From an uncultured Candidatus Entotheonella sp. (lineage in GTDB: Bacteria > Tectomicrobia > Entotheonellia > Entotheonellales > Entotheonellaceae), in contig OX639990.1 of the NCBI GenBank assembly GCA_951828535.1, positions 1,041,300-1,105,299 of the forward strand: a DNA stretch of 64,000 nt, written 5' to 3'. This document shows, piece after piece, positions 16,665-25,688 of the stretch; the stretch's first letter is position 1; the number at the start of each line of letters is the position of its first letter. The translations under genes were made by a program, and so were the position numbers. The notes beneath the pieces are model-generated. The model worked only from the letters and a program-made list of their open reading frames with translations, was not told where the DNA came from and ran no database searches.

Positions 16665-16693
16665 AATATACTGAGGCCCTGTCCCTTTGTCAA
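16665..16693 (-). promoter_or_regulatory. Sigma-70-type promoter of the DUF151 gene
   Basis: On the minus strand, TTGACA (16693-16688), a 17-base spacer, then TATATT (16670-16665). The -35 is perfect, the -10 matches five of six, and the spacing is ideal. It points at the gene starting at 16576. Confidence 0.75.
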
Positions 16694-16701
16694 GCAAGGC
16701 T

Positions 16702-16851
16702 TCAATAGGACAGAGGATAACTGATGGCTTGTTGTGCCAAACTCAAAATGTGCCCTTGGGCGGCCAGAGCGTGCAGTCGCATGTCCCGTGAATCCATAGC
16801 ATTCATCAAAGTCGCTGGACGAACGCCCAGTTCGGGCGGCGCTTCCTCCAT
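16702..16851 (-). CDS. Unrecognised 49-residue open frame
   Basis: Part of the gap of about 470 bases between the DUF151 gene and secA. One minus-strand frame is open for about 60 codons; from ATG 16851 it gives 49 residues beginning MEEAPPELGV and ending AISYPLSY, with a protein-like composition. There is no good ribosome site and no family was recognised. It ends just before the DUF151 promoter. It may be a small gene, the tail of a decayed gene, or chance. Apart from this and the two promoters, nothing else was seen in the gap. Confidence 0.22.
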   Translation of the reverse strand: MEEAPPELGVRPATLMNAMDSRDMRLHALAAQGHILSLAQQAISYPLSY

Positions 16852-16991
16852 CAGCACGGAAAACGACTTACACGCACCGCGCTGACCAGCACGACCGCGT
16901 GTGCCAATTTTCGGTCACGTAAATCAGCCGGTCACCAAGATTTCCCTCACCCAATCATAACCTGTCGTGATACCGGCGCAATCGGTGTATC

Positions 16992-17000
16992 TGCTATACT
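16992..17000 (+). promoter_or_regulatory. Extended -10 promoter of secA
   Basis: TGC followed by TATACT at 16995-17000 makes an extended -10 element 45 bases before the secA start. No clear -35 is present at the expected distance, as is common for extended -10 promoters. Confidence 0.45.
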
Positions 17001-17045
17001 CGTCATACGTCCAATGAAAATCCACTCTGGCAATAGGATGCGACC

Positions 17046-19691
17046 ATGTTAGAGACGGTATTACACAAAGTTTTTGGCAGCAAAAACGAGCGGGAACTGA
17101 AACGGCTGCAGCCCAGAGTAGAGCAAATCAACCAACACGAGTCATCTCTCTCCAACTTGACACTCGACGACCTGCGTGGACGCACCAATACCTTCCGGGA
17201 ACAGTTGGCCAATGGAGCCCCCCTCGACAGCTTGCTTCCCGGAGCCTTTGCCGTCGTGCGGGAAGTCTCCAAACGTCTGCTCAACATGCGTCATTTTGAC
17301 GTGCAACTCCTCGGGGGCATGGTGCTGCACGAAGGCAGCATCGCGGAGATGAAAACGGGGGAAGGCAAAACCCTGGTCGCAACGCTGCCGGTGTACCTCA
17401 ACAGCCTCATTGGCCAAGGGGTGCATGTCGTGACGGTCAATGATTACCTCGCGCGGCGAGACGCCGAATGGATGGGGCCATTGTACCAAGCCCTTGGGCT
17501 CTCCGTCGGCATCATTCAACATGACATGGACGACAAGGCGCGCCACAACGCTTACCGAGCGGATGTTACCTACGGCACCAACAATGAGTTTGGCTTCGAT
17601 TATCTGCGCGACAACATGAAGTTCAGCCAGAGCGAATTTGTCCAGAGATCGTTGCACTACGCCATCGTTGATGAAGTGGACAGCATTCTTATTGACGAGG
17701 CCCGCACCCCGCTGATCATTTCCGGCCCTACCGAGGAATCCACCGACAAATACTATCGCATCGACCGCATTATCCCTCGTTTGAAGCAAGATCCCCATTA
17801 CACGCTCGACGAAAAGACGCGCTCAGTGGCTCTGACCGAGGAAGGCGTGGCAACCGCGGAACAACTCCTAGGCGTCGACAATCTCTACGACCCCGGCAAT
17901 ATCGAAGCCCTGCACCATGTGAACCAAGCCCTCAAAGCACACATCCTGTTCAAGCGCGACGTCGATTACGTCGTCAAGGATGGCGAGGTCATTATCGTTG
18001 ACGAGTTTACCGGACGGCTCATGCCCGGGCGGCGCTACAGCGACGGGCTGCACCAAGCCTTGGAAGCCAAGGAACGTCAGAAGGTCGCTAATGAAAACCA
18101 GACCCTCGCCTCCATTACCTTCCAGAACTATTTCCGTATGTACAACAAATTGGCCGGCATGACGGGGACGGCCGATACCGAAGCCGTCGAGTTTCACACG
18201 ATCTACAAACTGGACGTGGCCGTCATACCGACGAATTGCGAACTGGTTCGGCTTGAGTACCCGGATGTCATCTACCGCACCGAGGCGGAGAAACTTCAGG
18301 CCGTCAGCGAAGAAATCCAAGCGCTCCACAACAAGGGACAACCTGTCCTGGTGGGAACCATTTCCATCGAAAAGTCGGAAGCGTTGAGCACCCATCTCAA
18401 ACGTCGCGGCATTTCGCACAATGTTCTCAACGCCAAGAACCATGAGCGAGAGGCGGAGATTGTGGCTCAGGCTGGGCGTAAGGGCGCCGTGACCCTTTCT
18501 ACCAATATGGCCGGGCGCGGTACCGACATTTTATTGGGCGGCAACCCCGAATTTCTGGCCCGCCAAGCCTGCAAGCTCGGGATCAACGATTCGGAGTACC
18601 CGGCTCAGCTCACCAAAATGCGTTCGCAGTGCGCCACGGAGCATAAGGAAGTGGTTGCCTGTGGGGGGCTCCACATTCTGGGCACCGAACGCCATGAGGC
18701 CCGCCGTATTGACAACCAGCTTCGCGGGCGTTCGGGGCGTCAAGGCGACCCGGGATCTTCTCGCTTTTACCTGTCGTTGGAGGATGATCTGCTCCGGATT
18801 TTCGGTTCGGAACGCATATCTGGCGTAATGGCGAAGTTGGGTATGGAGGCAGGCGAACCCATTGAACACCGCATGATCACCCGAGCCATTGAAAACGCCC
18901 AGCGCAAGGTCGAAGCCCACAATTTCGACATCCGCAAGCATCTTCTGGAATACGATGACGTGATGACCAAACAACGTGAGGTCATCTACAACCAGCGCCG
19001 CGAAGTGCTGGAAACGGACGACATCCACGCCCTGGTCGTTGAGATGTCCGGCGAGGTGCTGCAGGACATTTTCGACACCCATGTCGACCCTGAAGCTTAT
19101 GCCGATGATTGGGATATTCCGGGTCTTGTGGATGCTGTACGCCAGCGCTATGGGTTGCAAATGCCTTTGACGCCGGCGAGCCTCGCAGACTTCGGGCGTG
19201 CAGAGCTTCTCGAACACCTTCGCGAACATCTGGAAGCCAGTTACGAGGCCAAACTAACGGAAGCGGGCACGGAGCCGTTTAGAGCTCTGGAGCGCTTCAT
19301 CGTCCTGCAGGTCATCGACAAGCATTGGAAAGACCATTTGCTGGCCATGGACCACTTGAAGGAAGGCATTGGCTTGCGAGGTTACGCGCAGAAAAATCCT
19401 TTGAATGAGTACAAGCGTGAAGCATTTGAAATGTTTGTCGACATGACGGACCGCATCAAGAATGATGTGGTTGAATATCTATTCAAGGTTGAATTGGCGA
19501 GCGCTGAGGGCGTGCCGGTCGCTCACCAGCGGCCCCATACCCCGCGAAACGTCGAACATCGCGGCGCACTGGGCGGCGGTGGCGAAACCGCCGTAGCAAA
19601 AACCGTACGGCGCCAAGGCGAAAAGGTGGGACGGAATTCCGCCTGTCCGTGCGGCAGTGGAAAGAAGTACAAAAGGTGTTGCGGCAGTTGA
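17046..19691 (+). CDS. secA: Preprotein translocase ATPase SecA
   Basis: Motor that pushes unfolded proteins through SecYEG. The 881-residue protein has the DEAD-type motor: Walker [11 protein letters not shown], Walker [21 protein letters not shown], and the second motor domain with [10 protein letters not shown] and [11 protein letters not shown]. The C-terminal zinc-binding tail [14 protein letters not shown], which binds SecB and phospholipid in known SecA proteins, is complete. Full length, ATG start at 17046. It stands alone on the plus strand and converges with the methyltransferase gene 16 bases downstream. Confidence 0.98.
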
Positions 19692-24782: not shown

Positions 24783-24882
24783 GCAAACATAGAAAACGAG
24801 GTAATTTAGTTTCTGGGTTGTCGTACACCTGTCGTGTCAAGGTGCCTTGCACTGTGCCTTTAATTCTCCTGGAGAAAACGTT

Positions 24883-25677
24883 ATGAAACGATGTAGCCTC
24901 GTTTTTTTGATAAGCCTATTGATGATCAGCTTTGGCAACCTCGGACACGCCGACGACGCAGTCGAAATGAAGGTGAGAGGCGTCACGATGGACCCCGAAA
25001 GGCATTCCCCTATCGTCATCCTAGAGGACAGTCAGGGGCACGAGGCATTTCCGATTTGGATCGGCCTGCCCGAGGCGCGTGCCATTGCCTTGGAGCTTGA
25101 GGGGGTGGACACGCCCCGGCCGCTGACCCACGCACTCCTCAACAATATACTAGTCAATTTGAAAATTGGCGTGCGACGCATCTTCGTCAATGACCTTCGG
25201 AACAACACCTATTTCGCCAAGATTGATTTGCAGCGCGGTTCCGAAACAATAACCATCGATGCCCGACCCAGCGACGCCATCGCGCTCGCCATCCGTACAA
25301 AGGCGCCAATATTCGTTGCCCGCAAGGTGTTGGATGCCACGCGTACCGTCATCCTCGCCGGACCGAAGACGCCGGAGCATTCCGCCAAGATGTGCGGCAT
25401 TATTGTTCAAGACCTTACCCCACAACTCGCCCGCATCTTCAACCTGACCACGACGGACGGGGTTTTGGTGGCCTCCGCCCAGCCGGAGCGTCATGCCGAG
25501 GGTCATGACGTGCGCCGTGGAGACGTGATTACGGAGGCGGATGGAACGAAGATCAACACCGTTCAGGACTTTCAAAGCCTCTGCCAGAACAAGGCGGCGG
25601 GTGAAGAAGTCGTTTTGCATGTAACCAGAGACCAGCGGCCCGTCGAACTGAAATTGTCCCTGTCATCTCTCGACTAG
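24883..25677 (+). CDS. Exported DUF151 nuclease-family protein fused to a PDZ domain
   Basis: 264-residue product from ATG 24883, with GGAG eight bases upstream. A signal peptide (MKRCSLVFLISLLMISF, cleavage near GHADDA) predicts export to the periplasm. The DUF151 core follows: EMKVRGVTMDP, AFPIWIGLPEARAIALELE, TPRPLTHALL and IDARPSDAIALAIR. The C-terminal part (about 170-264) is a PDZ-like domain (IIVQDLTPQLARIFNL, VRRGDVITEADGTKI, VVLHVTRDQRP). DUF151 proteins are usually cytosolic or organellar single-domain proteins. The paralogue at 16094 lacks both the leader and PDZ. It is followed 11 bases later by thiE. Nuclease activity and role are not readable; a periplasmic nucleic-acid or stress role is speculation. 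Confidence 0.82.
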   Translation: MKRCSLVFLISLLMISFGNLGHADDAVEMKVRGVTMDPERHSPIVILEDSQGHEAFPIWIGLPEARAIALELEGVDTPRPLTHALLNNILVNLKIGVRRIFVNDLRNNTYFAKIDLQRGSETITIDARPSDAIALAIRTKAPIFVARKVLDATRTVILAGPKTPEHSAKMCGIIVQDLTPQLARIFNLTTTDGVLVASAQPERHAEGHDVRRGDVITEADGTKINTVQDFQSLCQNKAAGEEVVLHVTRDQRPVELKLSLSSLD

Positions 25678-25688
25678 GAGGGTAGCGC

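Follow-up and report, generated by a model that had tools for sequence, protein, structure and literature searches.

Proteins of the DUF151 family occur in bacteria, archaea and plants and owe their 'bifunctional nuclease' label to evidence from plants. We know of no settled function for a bacterial member and, to our knowledge, the family has been studied only inside cells and chloroplasts. The closest described systems are the single-domain DUF151/BFN proteins TM0160 (1VJL/1SJ5) and Rv1829/Cor of M. tuberculosis, which have been reported to dimerise, the pockets of BFN dimers lying at the interface; in the putative triad of TM0160, Asp115 and His58 of one monomer are complemented by Thr57 of the other (PMC7249048). 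Plant BBD and plastid UVR-DUF151 proteins, which are nuclear, cytoplasmic or plastid, carry HCR and UVR modules, and HtrA/DegP/DegQ proteases combine export and a PDZ1-type domain with a trypsin-like protease domain.

The gene considered here lies in a stretch of 64,000 nucleotides (hereafter, the window) from an uncultured Candidatus Entotheonella sp., a bacterium of the sponge-symbiont type. Its product shares with TM0160 and Rv1829/Cor the BFN fold (Foldseek match of the domain to TM0160, 1sj5/1vjl: E 7e-14, TM 0.86 by target length, rmsd 1.6), the Thr/His/Asp of the putative triad and the DxRPSD motif; however, those proteins have neither a signal peptide nor a PDZ domain, and carry Asp at position 84, where the window protein has Ala. 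Like the plant and plastid proteins, it joins a DUF151 core to a protein-interaction module, but Pfam recognised only BFN and PDZ domains in it, with neither HCR nor UVR, and the architecture is thus not that of BBD. With the HtrA-type proteases it has in common the PDZ1-type domain and export, whereas the place of the trypsin-like protease domain, of which Pfam found no trace in the window protein, is taken by BFN.

Table 1. Features of the BFN-PDZ gene and of the second BFN gene in the window; residues are numbered from the start of the encoded protein
Feature	Position in window	Strand	Remarks
BFN-PDZ gene	24883..25677	+	264 aa + stop; relatives 94% and 77% identical
Shine-Dalgarno-like GGAGA	24871..24875	+	7 nt before ATG; read from sequence
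Sec-type signal peptide, residues 1-23, MKRCSLVFLISLLMISFGNLGHA followed by DD	24883..24951	+	predicted cleavage between GHA and DD, likely after Ala23
BFN/DUF151 core, residues 28-155	24964..25347	+	Pfam PF02577 + Foldseek
Thr82-His83, matching Thr57-His58 in the proposed TM0160 triad	25126..25131	+	alignment to 1sj5/1vjl; retained
Ala84, codon GCA	25132..25134	+	Asp in 89/91 BFN domains; relative L034 has GAT
D126-A-R-P-S-D131 motif; Asp131 equivalent to TM0160 Asp115 of the proposed triad	25258..25275	+	retained
Linker, residues ~155-166	25345..25380	+	pLDDT below 50 at 159-165
HtrA/DegP PDZ1-type domain, residues 163-260	25369..25662	+	conserved G172, RGD 212-214
Cytosolic-type BFN paralogue, 160 aa	16094..16576	-	no signal, no PDZ; C-terminal KPEDFGKL tail

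The open reading frame is a real gene (Table 1), and domain profiles, synteny and dN/dS rule out a chance reading frame or a wrong start. The nearest named genome, that of a Candidatus Entotheonella and assembled independently, carries an ortholog that is 94% identical and stands in the same ftsK / thiE / lgt / miaA surroundings. The dN/dS ratio is 0.16 against this ortholog and 0.155 against the 77%-identical relative (L034), and the gene is therefore under purifying selection, with BFN (0.09-0.10 against the two relatives, 0.10 between congeners) more constrained than PDZ (0.18-0.20, and 0.20 between congeners). An operon with thiE was considered and is not supported: in the window, a gap of 11 nt (25678-25688) follows the stop codon before thiE begins, but the two genes are about 690 nt apart in the sister genome (L066 8714-9401), and no thiE was recognised beside the other fusions when their neighbours were read by eye.

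The signal peptide proposed in the preliminary description is borne out by hydropathy, by the cleavage site and by the presence of the same segment in all complete fusions. The hydrophobic core reaches a hydropathy of 2.86 over 11 residues, and residues 3-17 form a helix in the structure model. Among the sampled proteins, an export-signal-like N-terminal segment was found in 16/16 complete fusions versus 1/74 PDZ-less BFN proteins, an association between PDZ and export with a Fisher p of 8e-17 when relatedness is ignored (91 distinct BFN proteins), and the further fusions recovered by phylum-wide searches all have an export-like N-terminus. Judged from sequence and fold, a location of the window protein outside the cytoplasm is well supported, because the profile and fold searches pass and the same arrangement of domains turns up in several phyla, always behind an export signal; the protein is probably periplasmic. 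That the hydrophobic stretch might instead be no export signal and the protein cytosolic is very improbable: the signal was judged by hydropathy and by reading of the G-H-A cleavage site, which leaves some room for this reading, but the N-terminus combines a charged n-region and a hydrophobic core with a GHA-D site, and such a segment accompanies every complete fusion while nearly all PDZ-less copies lack it. The sole PDZ-less BFN protein sampled with a clear signal peptide, L026 (G069), ends shortly past the BFN core.

The full DUF151/BFN core described previously is complete by profile (Pfam BFN_dom, PF02577, residues 45-154; E 2e-37, 127.9 bits versus a curated cut-off of 27) and by fold, but one of its near-invariant residues, Asp84, has been changed to Ala. 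Accordingly, where the preliminary description had raised a loss of catalytic-type residues, the alignment gives a divided answer: all three residues of the putative TM0160 triad have been kept, and the adjacent near-invariant Asp is lost. The triad was mapped by alignment to 1sj5/1vjl after subtraction from the chain numbering of 12 residues, which we take to be a tag, whereupon all three residue types match. D126, R128, S130 and D131 are invariant in 91/91 BFN domains, and position 84 is Asp in 74/74 PDZ-less domains, in which Thr82 and His83 are less conserved (67/74 each). The prevalence of Asp after the Thr-His pair (89/91) is a conservation found in this comparison and not a published membership criterion; the window protein departs from it, yet its membership by the BFN profile stands. 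The comparison indicates that the loss of Asp84 is real and recent, because Ala, encoded by GCA, occurs both in the window and in the congener, which was assembled independently, whereas the 77%-identical relative keeps Asp, and that, among the samples, it is confined to exported fusions. In one exported fusion from another phylum, L146 (G403), position 84 is His.

Ala84 puts the activity of the window BFN domain in doubt, and the nuclease label is unproven here. Should the protein nevertheless be a true periplasmic DNase/RNase, BFN would degrade incoming or leaked nucleic acid, and PDZ would merely anchor it to the envelope. The DNase and RNase activity of plant DUF151 proteins in vitro (PMC7249048), the presence of the proposed TM0160 triad residues and the low dN/dS in BFN all speak for such an enzyme. 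However, the plant activity is cofactor-independent and was measured on MBP fusions, active-site mutants were not found in the same paper (PMC7249048), and the literature searched yielded no nuclease assay of a bacterial BFN protein. Moreover, none of the 74 PDZ-less BFN domains departs from Asp at position 84, where the window protein has Ala and one other fusion has His, and the ligands of PDZ domains are proteins rather than nucleic acids. We therefore regard a periplasmic nuclease as unlikely, and the nuclease part of the preliminary description is not well supported, given that in the literature consulted only plant BBD proteins have been shown to have the activity (PMC7249048), and that Asp84 has been lost in the window genus.

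The assignment of the C-terminal domain to PDZ, by contrast, has held up in both profile and fold searches. Residues 191-260 match Pfam PDZ_2 (PF13180; E 1e-12, 48.6 bits versus a cut-off of 27) and residues 163-233 match PDZ_1 (PF12812; E 2e-7, 31.4 bits versus 28), the best partial NCBIfam match is to the PDZ1 part of DegP (TIGR02037 positions 236-328, E 3e-14), and Foldseek returned, after TM0160, the PDZ structures of DegQ, DegP, MamP and HtrA. The glycine of the carboxylate-binding loop (G172) and the GD turn (G213, D214) are invariant in 16 fusions. The AlphaFold2 model drew on 16 sequences from the window and the loci and reaches a mean pLDDT of 77; it shows BFN with two strand-helix repeats followed by PDZ, in an arrangement that is uncertain at a pTM of 0.51. 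Two cysteines, Cys171 and Cys232 (codons 25393-25395 and 25576-25578), are found only in the three Entotheonella-clade fusions, the former immediately ahead of the conserved glycine of PDZ, the latter in a helix predicted at 227-235; a disulfide between them across the PDZ groove is possible. In the BFN domain, cysteine is absent from all 17 fusions and present in 21/74 (28%) of the others (p 0.01).

The architecture extends well beyond this genus. A search for DUF151 together with PDZ, of the kind suggested in the preliminary description, was performed with a profile of nine fusions against 386 sampled genomes and recovered full-length BFN-PDZ proteins in 16 of them. The fusions span at least eight phyla, and with G367 and G101 there may be a ninth. 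Phylum-wide searches found the fusion in 2/5 for the window's own phylum, near-universally around G141 (15/18), G074 (5/5) and G077 (3/3), and in 1/1 each around G052, G018, G036 and G035. This distribution, with 16/386 genomes and whole small phyla, rules out a gene fusion or assembly join restricted to one genome. In G080 and G222, BFN genes that seemed to encode very long fusions were set aside, as what lies upstream resembles coding sequence read out of frame and not a real fusion. Whether the fusion arose once was addressed with a tree of 132 columns, most forks of which are without resolution; it requires five changes, and its well-supported branches force at least two. No full-length fusion was found in plasmid records. 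Collectively, these observations suggest that exported BFN-PDZ proteins represent an overlooked cell-envelope branch of the DUF151 family. A literature search, outside which most subscription journals fell, found no paper on DUF151 combined with PDZ; database curators may already show the pairing.

In the interpretation that we favour, with a probability of roughly 0.6, the window gene product is an exported, probably periplasmic and dimeric DUF151/BFN member, the HtrA-type PDZ of which docks the BFN pocket on envelope proteins. Once the protein had been exported by Sec and cleaved, its BFN domains would dimerise and form shared pockets, each protomer carrying its PDZ on a short flexible linker; PDZ would bind C-terminal or exposed hydrophobic or unfolded peptides of envelope proteins and thereby dock the pocket at chosen protein partners. 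Taking all BFN-PDZ fusions together, we give a hydrolase or nuclease function of the pocket somewhat less than even odds. In the window genus, a role in the quality control of envelope proteins, by binding or as an adaptor, appears at least as likely as a hydrolase or nuclease function, because Asp84 has been lost while purifying selection continues. The periplasmic quality-control role put forward in the preliminary description can reasonably be drawn from the HtrA-type PDZ, although the gene neighbourhood lends it no support: read by eye, the surroundings of the fusions hold no conserved pointer to proteolysis or nucleic-acid metabolism.

A more specific alternative is that the protein has no catalytic activity and acts together with HtrA proteases as an adaptor or inhibitor, handing over or protecting clients. 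The window PDZ is closest to PDZ1 of DegP/DegQ, the same genome encodes HtrA proteases (five strong matches to serine proteases of the HtrA type, Trypsin_2), Asp84 has been lost from a gene that remains under purifying selection, and in plastids, DUF151-UVR proteins are found enriched together with ClpC1 (PMC8889267). Yet most genomes show no linkage of the fusion to htrA or other protease genes, and the other invariant polar residues of BFN, unneeded in a dead scaffold, have been kept, so that we consider this alternative rather unlikely. Besides the plastid evidence, a published list of the ClpC1 interactome of mycobacteria includes the BFN protein MSMEG_3645 (PMC10433963), and Rv1829 has been linked by genomic context to an envelope operon (PMC3317503); the ClpC1 associations may tie the family to proteolysis, but they concern other branches and may reflect substrates. 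More speculative still, and in our estimation quite improbable, is a reading in which exported BFN-PDZ proteins would constitute a separate, widespread envelope quality-control class, with DUF151 serving as a client- or protease-handling pocket rather than a nuclease, the window genus having a pocket devoid of the Asp and a PDZ groove that may hold a lineage-specific, redox-sensitive Cys171/Cys232 pair.

The own genome contains only two BFN genes, and the second, at 16094-16576, is, as originally proposed, a cytosolic-type copy of the same family, with a BFN match and without a signal or PDZ. At the C-terminus of most PDZ-less BFN proteins stands a conserved tail of the W-L-E-N-L-K-P-E-D-F-G-K type (WLENLKPEDFGKYKM-like); the PxDF tail was found in 45/74 of them and in 0/17 fusions, and some PDZ-less proteins end, by eye, in a UVR-like helix. 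Different C-terminal modules are thus mounted on one BFN core, and PDZ would therefore be the module used outside the cytoplasm. The KPEDFGK tail may be an uncharacterised docking motif, and in cytosolic relatives this tail or the UVR helix might do the same docking job as PDZ. The exported PDZ class versus the tail/UVR class provides a clean comparative set, in which Ala84 is a natural variant at an otherwise invariant Asp, and together they make the role of the BFN pocket directly testable. In G035, the BFN gene near secA (L070 6300-10717) is a fusion, whereas the one near secA in the window (16094-19691) is the cytosolic copy.
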